Shown: one piece after another, positions 6,350 to 20,876 of the stretch | Layout of the letters: each line of letters opens with the position of its first letter | How positions within the stretch are numbered: the first letter of the stretch is position 1 | IMG/VR virus record: IMGVR_UViG_3300027805_000100 | Coordinates: 1 to 20,876 of that record | Source: a virus | Strand: one strand, 5' to 3' | DNA length: 20,876 bases | Program-made: the position numbers and the translations under genes | Notes under the pieces: generated by a model | What the model was told of the DNA's origin: nothing | The model's database searches: none | Seen by the model: the letters and a program-made list of their open reading frames with translations, nothing else

Positions 6350-6396
6350 TTGTGCTTGACACGTTCTATCGGCCCCCGATAGAAGTCAAGGCACAA
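6350..6396. promoter_or_regulatory. Large inverted repeat in the divergent promoter region (operator)
   Basis: A nested inverted repeat fills the gap between the two divergent replication operons. Outer arms TTGTGC (6350-6355) and GCACAA (6391-6396) enclose TTGAC/GTCAA, and the inner arms TTCTATCGG (6364-6372) and CCGATAGAA (6376-6384) have a 3-nt centre. The inner arm overlaps the -10 of the rightward promoter, so a dimeric repressor bound here would shut that promoter and probably the leftward one. The HTH protein at 7707 is a possible ligand; this is inference. Confidence 0.7.
6356..6385 (+). promoter_or_regulatory. Rightward early promoter
   Basis: -35 TTGACA (6356-6361), 18-nt spacer, -10 TAGAAG (6380-6385); transcription would start near 6391 and give a short leader with the GAGGAGA ribosome site of the AAA gene. 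Leftward, the mirror copy TTGACT (6389-6384) sits only 15 nt from TAGAAC (6368-6363), so the leftward promoter is weaker or uses another -10. Confidence 0.7.
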
Positions 6397-7663: not shown

Positions 7664-7698
7664 CCCCGCACGGATCACCGTGCGGGGCTTTGCTTTGG
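7664..7698 (+). terminator. Intrinsic terminator after the DUF669 gene
   Basis: CCCCGCACGG (7664-7673), loop ATCA, CCGTGCGGGG (7678-7687) form a perfect 10-bp stem followed by CTTTGCTTTGG. It ends the two-gene recombination unit. The next gene's ribosome site TTTGGAG overlaps the T-rich tail, so downstream expression needs readthrough or an unseen promoter. Confidence 0.8.
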
Positions 7699-7706
7699 AG
7701 ATTCAC

Positions 7707-7958
7707 ATGGCCCGCACCTGGTACGACCGAAAAAACGGAGCCCGCACGATGCTTGATGGCACCCGCCTACGCGCTCTCCGTGAGAGCATGGGCATGAGCC
7801 TGCCCGACGTGGCCCGTGAAACGCGCTGTAGCGTCGCCAGTTTGTCAGTATGGGAGAACGAGGGTGCTTGCCCGTCGACGGAGTCTATCGCCGCGCTGCG
7901 GGCATTCTACGGTGATGCTTTGGAAGCATCGGGCGCTCTCACGGTGTCCGATGCCTGA
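7707..7958 (+). CDS. XRE-family helix-turn-helix regulator
   Basis: A small (83-residue) DNA-binding protein. The HTH_3 pattern is clear: LRALRESMGMSLPDVARETR followed by CSVASLSVWENEG and a closing helix IAALRAFYGDAL. There is no C-terminal peptidase, so it is a stand-alone Cro/CI-like or transcription-modulating protein. Two starts each have a ribosome site: ATG 7707 (TTTGGAG, 6-nt spacing) and ATG 7749 (AACGGAG, 8-nt spacing); the latter removes only a non-conserved basic N-terminus. It sits just after a strong terminator, and its stop overlaps the next gene. It is a candidate binder of the inverted repeat at 6350-6396. Confidence 0.78.
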   Translation: MARTWYDRKNGARTMLDGTRLRALRESMGMSLPDVARETRCSVASLSVWENEGACPSTESIAALRAFYGDALEASGALTVSDA

Positions 7959-10395: not shown

Positions 10396-10549
10396 GTCGC
10401 CACATGCATGGGCGTCTCGCCCTCGCATTCTGGTACGGGCGCTGTGCTGCGTCCGTCATCGGCCCACTGTAATCATCGGCGACGACCACAACAGCGACAC
10501 CGTCGAGATCATCCGCGACGCGACGCAACGATTGAAGGAGACAGCATGA
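10385..10549 (+). CDS. Small hypothetical protein, GTG start
   Basis: 54 residues starting at GTG 10385, overlapping the previous gene by 11 nt. The C-terminal half PTVIIGDDHNSDTVEIIRDA looks like folded protein, and the stop (TGA 10547-10549) overlaps the next ATG as ATGA, the coupling used throughout this operon. The competing 26-codon frame at 10392-10472 starts with ATGA but ends 74 nt before the next gene. I prefer the 54-residue product. The ribosome site is poor. Confidence 0.5.
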   Translation: MADESPHAWASRPRILVRALCCVRHRPTVIIGDDHNSDTVEIIRDATQRLKETA

Positions 10550-10716
10550 AGAAACCCCCCCGAATCGCCTTGAACATCGATCTGAAGCCCGCTGAACGGC
10601 AGGCCCTCGACGCAGCAGCCGCCGCCGTCATCGACGAGCGTGGTCGACCCATGCGCGTGTCTACTTGGGCGCGTCGTGTGCTGATTGAAGCGGCGAAGGC
10701 CACGGAGAACACATGA
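10546..10716 (+). CDS. Ribbon-helix-helix-like small protein
   Basis: 56 residues: a beta-strand-like start (RIALNIDLK) followed by two helices (PAERQALDAAAAAVIDE and STWARRVLIEAAKA). That arrangement resembles Arc/MetJ/CopG dimeric DNA-binding proteins, although the match is only structural in outline. ATG 10546 has GAAGGAG at 5 nt. It may regulate its own operon. Confidence 0.6.
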   Translation: MKKPPRIALNIDLKPAERQALDAAAAAVIDERGRPMRVSTWARRVLIEAAKATENT

Positions 10717-10739
10717 GCAAGCACACACCGGGACCGTGG
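10713..10739 (+). repeat. 27-bp direct repeat (partner 11386-11412)
   Basis: The first 27 bases of the two HTPGPW genes are identical, covering the start codon and the SKHTPGPW codons. Unequal recombination here would delete the gene between them. Confidence 0.9.
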
Positions 10740-11000
10740 ACGGCCCGAGAACCCAACGGCCCCGGCATAGGGTGGCGTGTTGGCCCGGCATGGCTGGGAG
10801 AGAAACCATGGTCAGACGAGACAAGTGCCAACGCCCACCTCATCGCCGCCGCGCCCGATCTGCTGGAGATGCTCGAAAAGTGCGTCGCTGCGCTTGAGGC
10901 GGTGGACCGCACCTACGCCTCCGCAGCTTCCTCGGAGGTGAGGCGAAAAGTGCTGGACGAAGCCTGCACCGTCGTCACCAAGGCGAAGGGGGAGGGCTGA
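10713..11000 (+). CDS. HTPGPW-type phage protein, copy 1
   Basis: 95 residues of a family widespread in phages: N-terminal SKHTPGPW, central ANAHLIAAAPDLLEMLE and a helical C-terminus. The function is unknown in general; the conserved AAAPDLL segment is the family hallmark. ATGA overlap with the upstream gene. It shares two long identical DNA blocks with the copy at 11386, so these are recent duplicates. Confidence 0.78.
   Translation: MSKHTPGPWTAREPNGPGIGWRVGPAWLGEKPWSDETSANAHLIAAAPDLLEMLEKCVAALEAVDRTYASAASSEVRRKVLDEACTVVTKAKGEG
10830..10866 (+). repeat. 37-bp direct repeat (partner 11509-11545)
   Basis: A second identical block in the same two paralogues, encoding NAHLIAAAPDLL. The middle paralogue at 11000 carries a diverged version near 11200-11240. 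Confidence 0.9.
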
Positions 11001-11389
11001 TGCACTCCATCCCCTTCCGCCAACTCGGCATCGACGTCGACGGCGACTGTCACGGCACAGAAGGCCCATGGGTTTTTGACGCCAGAAGGATGATCGTGAC
11101 CTCGACGCTACCACGCACGGGCATGCGACCAGCCGGCGACCCCTTCCCGACGGTCTGCCGCCTGCCTGCCTCCTACACGCCGCAGGTCGTCGACGGCTAC
11201 CTGCTGGCTGCCGCCCCCGATCTGCTGGAGGCCCTTGAGGATATGCTGGGGCACTGTCAGGGCTGCAACGGCAAGGGGCGCTGCTATGGCCCCGTCCCCG
11301 GCTCTCCGGGGTCATATGCAAGCAACCAACCATGCGGCGACTGCGCGGATGCTCGCGCAGCCATCGCGAAAGCAAGGGGGAGCCAATGA
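11000..11389 (+). CDS. HTPGPW-family relative with zinc-finger-like insert
   Basis: 129 residues. It keeps the family core GYLLAAAPDLLEALEDML (about 66-83) but has lost the HTPGPW start and carries a cysteine cluster C-x2-C-x5-C...C-x2-C (CQGCNGKGRC, then CGDC), reminiscent of DnaJ-type zinc binding. ATG 11000 overlaps the upstream stop (TGATG). It stands between two near-identical relatives, so it is an older, diverged duplicate. Function unknown. Confidence 0.7.
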   Translation: MHSIPFRQLGIDVDGDCHGTEGPWVFDARRMIVTSTLPRTGMRPAGDPFPTVCRLPASYTPQVVDGYLLAAAPDLLEALEDMLGHCQGCNGKGRCYGPVPGSPGSYASNQPCGDCADARAAIAKARGSQ

Positions 11390-11688
11390 GCAAGCACACA
11401 CCGGGACCGTGGTTCTACGCAGAATCTGAAGTAGGCACTCCGTTCGTCGACTCCGAATCTGTTGGCGATTTGTCCGCCGTCGCGCTGCCGCTTGACGAGC
11501 AGAAAGCAAACGCCCACCTCATCGCCGCCGCGCCCGATCTGCTGGCGGCGCTGGAAGATCTGCTTCCTGACTTGCAGTGCTGGTGCGACGTCGCGTTCAC
11601 GGCTCGAGGAAAGCATCAGCCGAACACGCTCTGTCACCACGAGGAAAACGTGAAGGCCGCCATCGCCAAAGCGAAAGGCCAGTCATGA
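11386..11688 (+). CDS. HTPGPW-type phage protein, copy 3
   Basis: 100 residues: SKHTPGPW start, ANAHLIAAAPDLLAALEDLL core, then a Cys/His-rich stretch (CWCDVAF, LCHHEE) and a helical tail ending AAIAKAKGQS. ATG 11386 follows GGGGGAG. The DNA shared with copy 1 covers both conserved protein segments, while the variable middles differ, the pattern expected from duplication followed by diversification of the linker. Confidence 0.78.
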   Translation: MSKHTPGPWFYAESEVGTPFVDSESVGDLSAVALPLDEQKANAHLIAAAPDLLAALEDLLPDLQCWCDVAFTARGKHQPNTLCHHEENVKAAIAKAKGQS

Positions 11689-14706: not shown

Positions 14707-14840
14707 TTGCCATGCTGTTCGTTATCGTCGTCGTCAGCGTAGCTGTCGGCCTTGTCTACCTCGCCGACGTATGGGAAGCGCGGGAACGCGCCCGCCGTCG
14801 TCATGAGGCCCTGCAATCCTTCTATGGACGTGAGTCATGA
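14703..14840 (+). CDS. Single-pass membrane microprotein
   Basis: 45 residues: the N-terminal hydrophobic segment AMLFVIVVVSVAVGLVYLA (about 3-21) is a clear transmembrane helix, followed by a positively charged cytoplasmic tail (EARERARRRHEALQS). ATGA overlaps at both ends place it firmly in the operon. The topology rule predicts the N-terminus outside. The sequence is compatible with a membrane-acting superinfection-exclusion or lysis-timing protein; function unknown. Confidence 0.65.
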   Translation: MIAMLFVIVVVSVAVGLVYLADVWEARERARRRHEALQSFYGRES

Positions 14841-15304
14841 CCAGAGTCCGTGGAACCGACAAACTTGATCCGCCGTCGACGTACCAGCGCATTATCGAGC
14901 GTGGGCCGTGGGCCAGCTACGCCCGATGTGAGGAGTGCGGCGTCGACGCCGGCCGCGCCTGTCGCGACATGAGCGACCGTGAGGCGCTAGAGGTCTGCGA
15001 TGAGCGCCGGCTCGTCATCAACGACAGCGCCGCCCGCTGTCGTGTGCGAAACGTCGACGACGAGAAGCCAGAGAAATCGAGACGCGACAAGCCGCCAGCC
15101 AGCGACAAGCGCACGAAGAAACGGCGAGAAGAGGGCAAAGCAGGCCAGCCGGTGTACGTCGCCTGCCACCACTGTGGCGAGCCGACCCGACTATGGGGGC
15201 AGGGCCTGATCTCAGGCCGCACATGGTGCGCGGCCACGGAGTGTCGTCGCCACAAGGGCAGGGTGTATCGCGCCGAGCGCGGGCTCAGCAGGAGGAGCGC
15301 ATGA
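14837..15304 (+). CDS. Zinc-ribbon protein with two cysteine clusters
   Basis: 155 residues. The N-terminal knuckle CEECGVDAGRACRD resembles the CxxC...G...C motif of small phage zinc fingers. The second cluster CHHCGEPTRLW...WCAATECRRH lies near the C-terminus. They are joined by a very basic, disordered linker (about 78-105, rich in Lys, Arg, Glu). The combination suggests nucleic-acid binding. ATG 14837 overlaps the previous stop. Confidence 0.65.
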   Translation: MTRVRGTDKLDPPSTYQRIIERGPWASYARCEECGVDAGRACRDMSDREALEVCDERRLVINDSAARCRVRNVDDEKPEKSRRDKPPASDKRTKKRREEGKAGQPVYVACHHCGEPTRLWGQGLISGRTWCAATECRRHKGRVYRAERGLSRRSA

Positions 15305-15498
15305 GCGAAGTGAAGCATTGTCACATGAACCGAGGTGCCCTTGAACGCCGCGCCGATGCGCTTGCCCGCTCTGAGGCGGCGCTACGCGCCGACCTCGCCG
15401 AGTGCCGCGCCGAGAAGGAGCGGCTCCGCAAGCTGAGTCTGCATCTGCAGGCCACGATTGACCGCATCCGTGTGGCTTGCGGGCCGGTCAGCCGTTAG
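15301..15498 (+). CDS. Short coiled-coil protein, last gene of the rightward operon
   Basis: 65 residues, almost entirely helical with heptad-like spacing (GALERRADALARSEAALRADLAECRAEKERLRKLSLHLQATIDRI). ATG 15301 has a strong CAGGAGGAG. The frame upstream of it belongs to the zinc-ribbon gene. Its stop TAG 15496-15498 overlaps the stop of the convergent peptidase gene, with no terminator between the operons. Confidence 0.6.
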   Translation: MSEVKHCHMNRGALERRADALARSEAALRADLAECRAEKERLRKLSLHLQATIDRIRVACGPVSR

Positions 15499-16413: not shown

Positions 16414-16645
16414 TGTGGTTTCCCTTCAGCAAAAGTGCTTCGATGCGGTCGAATCTTTTGTCCATCTCGGCTTGCATTTTTTCGACGCTGCCGGCCACCA
16501 TCGCCAGCGCCTCTTTGCTGGCCTTGTCACTGCGCAGCTCCGATGTGATTTCCTCAAGACGACGCACACGAGCCTGTAGCGCCGCCCATGCCGCTGCGCC
16601 ACCTGTCGCCGCCGAGAGAGCACCAATGGCAATTTGCTCAATCAC
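16400..16645 (-). CDS. Holin-like membrane protein
   Basis: 81 residues: an N-terminal hydrophobic segment (QIAIGALSAATGGAAAWAALQ, about 4-24), then a long charged coiled coil (RVRRLEEITSELRSDKASKEAL...EKMQAEMDKRFDRIEALLL). One TM helix plus a coiled coil fits type III-like holins or their regulators. GTG 16645 overlaps the patatin gene stop as GTGA; the longer in-frame extension upstream overlaps the patatin gene and is not used. The holin call rests on topology and on the endolysin two genes later. Confidence 0.6.
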   Translation of the reverse strand: MIEQIAIGALSAATGGAAAWAALQARVRRLEEITSELRSDKASKEALAMVAGSVEKMQAEMDKRFDRIEALLLKGNHSGTR

Positions 16646-17490
16646 GCCACACCTCGAAACCAGCCGCCGCAGAGGCGCACGGTGTCGTAGCCGGTCGACC
16701 ACTCACGTTCGACGCGCTGCTTGTTTTTCCTGAATGACCAATCGTTGACGGCGTCCACGTCGACATCCAGCCCGTCAGTGCGTCTCGACTTGCGTTGCGA
16801 TGGAGCCCACAGCAGAGCACGGGGAATCGCAGAGAGAATTGCTGGGACGTCACCTGGACGGATGCGGCTGGCCGGGTCCATCGGTGCCTCGCCGAGACGC
16901 ACGGACACGCGAGGCTCCGGCTTGTGGTCCCAGACGCTATCGACGGTGTTGTCGCAAAGCCCGCCGTCGCCATACAAGCGGATGTCCGGCGACAACTCCG
17001 TGCCGATTGACGGGATGACCGCCGCAGGGACCACGCCGCACATGAACGACGACGACGCGATGACAGCCTCACGCACTACAATGCGCGGTGTGCTGTGCTT
17101 CGACAGGTATACGGGCCTCGCCCTGTCGAGGTCGGTCACGCACACCACGAGCCCGCTGGTTGCGTCGCCGAGTCGTGCGCCCTTGCCGATGTGCGTGTCG
17201 ACGAGGTCGCCGATGACGTCGAGTGAAAACAAGCCCCCACGGGGGACACTGGCCGGCGACAGCGCGAGAGTCTGTCCACTCTCCAGCACGTCGACGAGCA
17301 TGGCGACGATGACCTCGTCGGGCAAGCCAAACGCCTTGCACGTTGCGACGATTGACCCCGCCGATGCGCCACTCCAACCAAGGACTTTCGCGTGTGCGTC
17401 GACGGCAGCAGCAGCACCGGCGAGGTAGGTGATAGCGGGGCCACCTCCGCTGATACTGGCGTACACTGGACGACGTGACATGCCGGTCAC
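16642..17490 (-). CDS. Patatin-like phospholipase
   Basis: 282 residues. All patatin landmarks are visible: glycine-rich oxyanion loop ISGGGPAITYLAG (13-25), nucleophile elbow GASAG (41-45, Ser43) and the catalytic Asp in YGDGGLCDN (D175). The oxyanion loop lacks the Arg/Lys that usually follows GGG. The enzyme would hydrolyse acyl chains of membrane lipids. GTG 17490 overlaps the previous stop (GTGA); ATG 17481 is an alternative. It directly precedes a holin-like gene and the C39 peptidase, so a role in host envelope breakdown is plausible. Another option is a virion enzyme used at entry. No signal peptide is seen. Confidence 0.85.
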   Translation of the reverse strand: MTGMSRRPVYASISGGGPAITYLAGAAAAVDAHAKVLGWSGASAGSIVATCKAFGLPDEVIVAMLVDVLESGQTLALSPASVPRGGLFSLDVIGDLVDTHIGKGARLGDATSGLVVCVTDLDRARPVYLSKHSTPRIVVREAVIASSSFMCGVVPAAVIPSIGTELSPDIRLYGDGGLCDNTVDSVWDHKPEPRVSVRLGEAPMDPASRIRPGDVPAILSAIPRALLWAPSQRKSRRTDGLDVDVDAVNDWSFRKNKQRVEREWSTGYDTVRLCGGWFRGVA

Positions 17491-20053: not shown

Positions 20054-20713
20054 TCAAGCGTTTTGCGCCTTGTTCGCCGACGAGAATCGCCCGACGCCAA
20101 GGGAGGGCGAACCGCCGTTGCGATTCGCCAGAACTCGATTGAAAAACGCCGACACCGCGCCGGGGTCGCGCTTCTTGATCTCGGCCAGCTTCGCGCCGCT
20201 CTTGTCGGCGAGGGCGGCCTCGATATCGACGGCAGACACCGGAGCGGGCGCACCCATCGGCGGAGGCTGGCCCTTGACGGGAGCCGCCGTCGTCGACGTG
20301 GAGCGGAAAGCCGCAAGCACCTTGCGGCGGGCCTCGATGTCGGACGCGCTGGCGTAGAGGTCGCGCACGGCGTCAGGCAGTGCGGCAGCCTCGGCGTCGA
20401 GGCGCTTTGCTTCCTCGGCCTCGTAGCTGCGCCACTTCGCCGCCAGCGGCTCGACGCCTTCGAGCTCAGCGAGGCGGGCCTTTGCCGCCTCCAAAGCCTT
20501 TGCGATCTCGCCGGCCTGCTCGGCCTGCTCCTGCGCCCGCTTGCGCTCCTCGCGCTCGGCCTTCTTCGATTCGGCTTGCGCAGCCTTCAGGCTCGCCAGT
20601 TCCGCCGCAGCGGCCTTGAGCGCGTCGAGGTCCACGACGTCAGGTGAAGGGGCAGCAGAGCCCGCTACAGGCTCTTGAGAGGGGGTCGGCGCGCCATCGG
20701 CGGAGGTGGTCAT
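20054..20713 (-). CDS. Scaffold protein for head assembly
   Basis: 219 residues, highly charged and Ala/Glu/Lys-rich: a disordered N-terminus (1-28), a long coiled coil (about 29-95, LASLKAAQAESKKAEREERKRA...), a helical middle, a Pro/Ala linker (about 155-175) and a C-terminal part with RDPGAVSAFFNRVLANRNG. This matches phage scaffolds encoded just before the capsid gene, from which it is separated by 26 nt. ATG 20713 has no Shine-Dalgarno but follows a -10 box by 6 nt, so the message is probably leaderless. Confidence 0.78.
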   Translation of the reverse strand: MTTSADGAPTPSQEPVAGSAAPSPDVVDLDALKAAAAELASLKAAQAESKKAEREERKRAQEQAEQAGEIAKALEAAKARLAELEGVEPLAAKWRSYEAEEAKRLDAEAAALPDAVRDLYASASDIEARRKVLAAFRSTSTTAAPVKGQPPPMGAPAPVSAVDIEAALADKSGAKLAEIKKRDPGAVSAFFNRVLANRNGGSPSLGVGRFSSANKAQNA

Positions 20714-20719
20714 GGCGGC

Positions 20720-20749
20720 AGTCTACTGCACTCTAGTGCAGACGTGCAA
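20720..20749 (-). promoter_or_regulatory. Head-operon promoter, leaderless
   Basis: -35 TTGCAC (20749-20744), 18-nt spacer, -10 TAGACT (20725-20720), then GCCGCC and the scaffold ATG. The expected +1 falls on the ATG itself. The spacer is almost filled by the palindrome 20726-20741, so a bound regulator would exclude RNA polymerase. Confidence 0.72.
20726..20741. promoter_or_regulatory. Operator copy 1 (16-bp palindrome)
   Basis: CTGCACT-CT-AGTGCAG, perfect 7-bp arms, lying between the -35 and -10 boxes of the scaffold promoter. Confidence 0.7.
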
Positions 20750-20756
20750 CCCGGAC

Positions 20757-20772
20757 CTGCACTCTTTTGCAG
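20757..20772. promoter_or_regulatory. Operator copy 2 (diverged palindrome)
   Basis: CTGCACTCTTTTGCAG matches copy 1 at 14 of 16 positions and keeps CTGCA/TGCAG arms. It starts 31 bp from copy 1, about three helical turns, so two dimers could bind the same DNA face upstream of and within the promoter. Confidence 0.65.
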
Positions 20773-20783
20773 TTGACAGGACG

Positions 20784-20876
20784 CTAGTGGGTGCGGCGGA
20801 CGACCTGATTGAGTGAGCATGGACCGATGTCCATGCCGGTCGCTCCGCCAGCCAGCGACGTCAGTTCAAACTGAAT
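20784..20876 (-). CDS. C-terminal end of an upstream head gene (partial)
   Basis: A 30-codon open end enters from the right edge and stops at TAG 20786-20784. The residues IQFELTSLAGG...MDIGPCSLNQVVRRTH read like real protein with the local codon bias. It precedes the scaffold gene, where portal or head-morphogenesis genes usually sit; the identity cannot be decided from 30 residues. An inverted repeat CATGGAC-CGAT-GTCCATG (20818-20835) lies inside it. Confidence 0.55.
   Translation of the reverse strand: MQFELTSLAGGATGMDIGPCSLNQVVRRTH

Follow-up and report, generated by a model that had tools for sequence, protein, structure and literature searches.

Palindromic candidate operators in two predicted leaderless late promoters of an uncultured tailed phage family and their probable role in repression

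Palindromes found in the late promoters of an uncultured tailed phage are probably double-stranded DNA operators, at which a dimeric regulator would repress late transcription; judging from the sequences and positions of the sites, we put the probability of this reading at about 0.6. The window analysed here is an entire viral contig of 20,876 bases, part of a phage genome of ~37 kb (the longest relatives are 36.9–37.8 kb). The names scaffold, capsid and portal are based on gene order and conservation, those of scaffold and capsid being positional. The putative scaffold gene (20054–20713, minus strand, 219 aa) heads a head-to-lysis operon, appears to start at a leaderless ATG at 20713, and precedes a conserved, putative capsid gene of 330 aa; relatives stand at 82–92%. 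The preliminary description of this DNA had proposed that the scaffold-capsid-lysis genes are preceded by a regulated, leaderless promoter carrying a pair of phased operators, and the comparisons below support such a predicted promoter.

On the minus strand, the scaffold promoter reads CTGTCAACTGCAAAAGAGTGCAGgtccgggTTGCACgtCTGCACTAGAGTGCAGTAGACTgccgccATG. The 71-bp gap 5' of the scaffold gene consists almost entirely of operators and promoter, and contains in order on this strand the upstream stop, CTGCAAAAGAGTGCAG, TTGCAC, CTGCACTAGAGTGCAG, TAGACT, 6 nt and the ATG. The -35 box TTGCAC (20744–20749) and the -10 box TAGACT (20720–20725) are separated by 18 nt, the final 16 of which are occupied by the proximal operator CTGCACTAGAGTGCAG, a perfect 16-bp palindrome (20726–20741) centred ~20 nt upstream of the ATG. 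The distal operator CTGCAAAAGAGTGCAG, a 14/16 match (20757–20772), is centred ~51 nt upstream of the ATG, at an offset from the proximal one of exactly 31 bp, or about three helical turns. The 6-nt gap between the -10 box and the ATG (20714–20719) has no Shine-Dalgarno sequence. Upstream, the tail block closes with a gene whose TAG stop codon is at approximately 20784–20786 (minus strand; frame 0 ends ...NQVVRRTH*); the ORF at this place in the relative G005 stops at 23457, at a distance of 70 bp from the scaffold ATG. Boxes, palindromes, spacing, 6-nt gap and lack of a Shine-Dalgarno sequence had all been described correctly, to the base.

Of 300 dinucleotide-shuffled versions of the window, one had two TGCA-N6-TGCA sites within 40 bp, and when this contig or three relatives were shuffled in this way, CTGCA-N6-TGCAG was expected by chance 0.02–0.04 times per contig; by this measure, the pair at the scaffold promoter is beyond chance, and its conservation among relatives is the stronger evidence. 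Related loci were collected from IMG/VR by a scan with the scaffold protein (6 loci) and a scan with the capsid protein (24 loci). In an alignment of eight phages, the window phage with G001–G006 and G010, the flanks drift around a set of conserved elements: both sites, the TTGC of the -35 box (also present in relatives with another class of operator, see below), GTGCAGTAG and the 6-nt gap. The two operators are 31–32 bp apart across the eight phages, and the distal copy of G006 has decayed by one base (TGCA to CGCA). Further copies of the palindrome, on which the preliminary description had made its proposal depend, were found: eight genomes (225 kb) contain 18 copies of CTGCA-N6-TGCAG, all of them at the late promoter of either the scaffold gene or the tail block, and the 292 kb of 13 other relatives contain none. 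A scan of the whole collection with the operator pattern returned seven loci, two of which belong to the family of the window phage; the other five, including G022 (26.6 kb, read whole), are from unrelated phages and are probably chance occurrences.

The second member of the regulon sits beyond the 20.9-kb fragment and was thus invisible when a single regulated switch was proposed. All near-complete genomes that bear the operator (G002, G003, G005, G006 and G010) carry one further site each, ~14 kb away and directly 5' of the first tail gene (CTGCATTATAGTGCAG-CC-ATG); the same tail-promoter site is present in four more contigs (G025, G028, G030 and G031). The centre of this operator is 10–12 nt before the tail-gene ATG, the -10 box (TATAGT or TAGAGT) lies within the palindrome, and the N-terminus of the tail gene is conserved starting at that ATG. 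Because the same operator is also found in the tail-block promoter, the notion of a single switch is too narrow: as read from these genomes, the late regulon is two operons with leaderless promoters.

Just upstream of the tail-block promoter of G005 (locus L035, ~360–460), the minus strand has a GC-rich stem and then TTTTT, with the look of an intrinsic terminator, so that the tail block is probably a transcription unit of its own. In G007, G012 and G016, which have the other operator class, this block comes behind the lysis genes; in the G005 class it is between the portal/minor-head genes and scaffold. Each block retains its own operator-promoter.

Two features of leaderless promoters were scored, a -10 box 5–9 nt before the start codon and no Shine-Dalgarno sequence, and the late starts showed both. 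A TAnnnT hexamer was located 5–7 nt upstream of the ATG at 16/16 scaffold, 15/15 portal and, in the CTGCA class, 5/5 tail starts, compared with 0/46 control starts (capsid 0/21, sak4 0/10, g17859 0/15). The gap to the ATG was 6–7 nt at all 16 scaffold starts, with 6 nt in each of the eight phages that carry CTGCA-N6-TGCAG; at the tail starts of the other operator class, a clear TAnnnT was seen in 0/10. Conversely, Shine-Dalgarno matches of at least 5 were rare at late starts (scaffold 2/16, portal 1/15, tail 0/15) and frequent at the controls (capsid 12/21, sak4 8/10, g17859 14/15), the -10 and Shine-Dalgarno patterns being reversed between late operon heads and internal or early genes. A leaderless late structural gene had been called unusual in the preliminary description. 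The starts do read as leaderless, but this appears general for the late operon heads of the family, and leaderless genes are known in the phages lambda and P2 (PMC4633059); the putative leaderless late start is therefore notable, yet with precedent. Mycobacterial leaderless promoters, with a -10 box directly before an RTG start (PMC4633059), have the same -10-to-start geometry and lack of Shine-Dalgarno sequence, and differ in that the present cases are late genes of a phage.

At the scaffold and tail promoters, and also before the portal gene, most of the 13 other relatives carry palindromes of the GCTTACATAAGC type in one orientation or the other; G013 and G014 have degenerate copies at most. 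The centres of these TTACATAA-type sites are at about -10 (tail), -26 (scaffold) and -30 (portal) from the ATG. On the capsid tree the operator class switches at least twice, and G003 (CTGCA class) groups with G019 (other class) with support 99/96. These switches indicate that the operator class was exchanged and not simply inherited with the capsid gene. The uncultured family thereby gains a concrete late regulon, with two operons, two operator classes and one architecture, and the swap of operator class between close relatives at fixed promoter positions provides a comparative handle on the rewiring of late control. Some portal promoters have no operator (L035, 3444–3500, in G005; also G009, G011 and G014); in these, TTGAC is only ~10 bp before a TAGnnT box, too near for a normal -35 box.

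Primary operators are centred at about -10, -20, -26 and -30 from the ATG, and every one of these positions overlaps the polymerase footprint on a leaderless promoter. As the main sites are within the core promoter, repression fits better than activation; the preliminary description had left this choice open, and the site positions would favour a repressor. In the mechanism that we propose, the regulator would bind the proximal scaffold operator, between the -35 and -10 boxes, together with the distal one, whose distance of three helical turns suits cooperative binding on one face of the DNA. At the tail-block promoter of the relatives it would bind the operator that engulfs the -10 box. RNA polymerase would in this way be excluded from both late promoters, and when the regulator is gone or inactivated both late operons would switch on together; their transcripts would begin at the ATG or beside it, and their translation would not need a Shine-Dalgarno sequence. 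The portal promoter of the other class counts against repression, since its operator occupies the expected place of the -35 box, as in activator-dependent promoters.

The main rival to repression is that the palindromes bind a late activator of the phage, similar to Ogr of P2, a small zinc-finger protein that would be produced late in the early phase and recruit polymerase to several late operons via the dyad. The four late promoters of P2 share TGT-N12-ACA and are served by the zinc-finger activator Ogr (PMC3931495). As in the Ogr/B regulon of P2 and 186, several late operons here have one common dyad, and a zinc-finger protein is encoded outside them, close to where the early operon ends in every dyad-bearing phage; leaderless genes are likewise known in P2. 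Moreover, the tail promoters have no -35 box, and a distal scaffold site at ~-51 would suit an activator. However, a conventional activator would obstruct polymerase if bound to the tail operator, centred on the -10 box, or to the proximal scaffold site, between intact -35 and -10 boxes, and the conserved N-terminus of the tail gene from its ATG means that transcription cannot begin far downstream. The systems also differ in their elements: CTGCA-N6-TGCAG lies inside the core promoter and the upstream dyad TGT-N12-ACA was not found, the zinc-finger-array protein has two to four CxxC modules spaced otherwise than the CX2CX22CX4C of the Ogr family, with no detectable similarity to Ogr, and Ogr/B activates whereas the role here is probably repression. 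We consider an Ogr-like activator unlikely.

Less likely again is the binding of a host transcription factor, the two operator classes then corresponding to different hosts. The candidate phage regulators are unproven, the bacterial XRE repressor BzdR, a catabolic regulator of Azoarcus, has TGCA-N6-TGCA as its operator, and CopG binds TGCA palindromes (PMC6678401). Against a host factor, the operator is confined to two promoters of one phage lineage, and its class tracks class-specific early genes (the zinc-finger-array family versus an XRE protein and another zinc protein, in the genomes sampled). With the BzdR system the late operator shares half-sites and spacing, as well as the location of operators in the -35/-10 spacer, several per promoter; in the BzdR system a TGCA palindrome is located between the -35 and -10 of PN, and the operators are bound cooperatively (PMC6678401). 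The difference is that a cognate XRE protein does not co-occur with the late operator, the XRE protein of the window not tracking it. By these features, the system partly resembles those of BzdR and P2 but belongs to neither type.

That the palindromes are RNA hairpins by the AUG, translational operators of the MS2 coat type, is highly improbable: the CTGCA-class 16-mers do fold into stems of 5–6 bp (-4.6 to -7.3 kcal/mol) and the tail copy ends 2–3 nt before the AUG, but for the alternative operators GCTTACATAAGC/ACC the folding energy is -1.1 or 0 kcal/mol, several copies have inner stem mismatches (CTGCAACAGAGTGCAG), and, judging from the -10 boxes, the distal scaffold site is not part of the transcript. 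Operators of the TTACATAA class form little or no RNA structure, a point in favour of recognition as DNA. In mycobacteriophage L5, repressor sites known as stoperators are scattered over the phage genome; one repressor-type site repeated at distant places is a shared feature, and the present sites differ in being symmetric and confined to promoters, in phages where no integrase was found (ten genomes).

That the regulator is not encoded at this spot, as had been described, is supported, but neither of the two proteins that had been named follows the late operator. The XRE-type HTH protein (7680–7958, plus strand; HTH_31, E=7e-8) is absent from the operator-bearing phages G002, G004 and G006, whose XRE proteins are unrelated to it. 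The early region of the window contains a palindrome at a divergent promoter, TTCTATCGG-CCC-CCGATAGAA (6364–6384), which is flanked by outward TTGAC boxes, is unrelated to the late operator, and is a predicted separate operator. In G031, both the HTH protein and the early palindrome (TTGTAGC-ACGC-GCTACAA) are different and the late operator is unchanged. Since the HTH type tracks the early palindrome, the HTH protein most likely reads 6364–6384, and it probably pairs with the early, not the late, operator. The RHH-like small protein (10546–10716, plus strand) was rejected because its gene is missing from G003 and G006, which both bear the operator; this separates the present system from the CopG-type RHH repressor of plasmid pMV158, with which it shares the TGCA palindromic core and the presence of a small RHH-like protein in the window.

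Families present in all operator-bearing phages and in none of the 13 others are a patatin-like gene of the lysis region, a small tail-region gene and the zinc-finger-array gene (14837–15304, plus strand), located near the end of the early operon; a short coiled-coil gene nearly shows the same distribution. Among the co-occurring early-region families, only the zinc-finger-array gene has a nucleic-acid-binding look, which makes it the best, unproven, phage-encoded candidate for the regulator by a co-occurrence mostly among close relatives. We tentatively suggest, giving it rather less than an even chance, that its product is the DNA-binding partner of the late operator. The model of this protein was poor (mean pLDDT 51.8); in it, the C-terminal half has beta-hairpin/helix units resembling treble clefs. 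A fold search with the model gave no significant match, and the protein had no Pfam match at E<=1. At the same locus, the sampled phages of the other class encode an XRE-like protein together with a zinc protein of another kind. The window gene is C-terminally shorter than in G004, G005 and G031, the last finger being missing, and G025 also has the short form; a coiled-coil ORF (15295–15498) comes after it.

A broader proposal, doubtful when taken as a whole, is that this family, in which no integrase is recognised, times its late genes by a non-HTH zinc-finger-array repressor that occludes leaderless core promoters, and that the whole operator-regulator pair is replaced in sister phages by one of unrelated specificity at fixed promoter positions. 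If true, the swapped pairs would be natural orthogonal late switches, and identification of the regulator would provide compact orthogonal promoter-operator parts.

Profile support for gene identities is limited to the terminase, one weak minor-head match and tail genes. The scaffold gene had no match in PHROG or Pfam, family searches gave no confirmation of the capsid and scaffold identities, and the capsid structure model was poor (pLDDT 31.6). No relatives of the family were found with the capsid among 50,697 phage records, nor in two genome-collection scans for a host with capsid and portal alignments, and the terminase is only ~29% identical to those of enterobacterial phages. Tyrosine and serine recombinases (integrase and resolvase families) were searched in 10 genomes and none was found, so that lysogeny, the classical reason for a repressor, is unsupported in this phage group. 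The window also contains, in the early region (10713–11688), a tandem set of two or more paralogues of a small protein starting MSKHTPGPW, with a related ORF between them. The patatin-like phospholipase gene of the lysis region is at 16642–17490, and is restricted to phages that carry CTGCA-N6-TGCAG.
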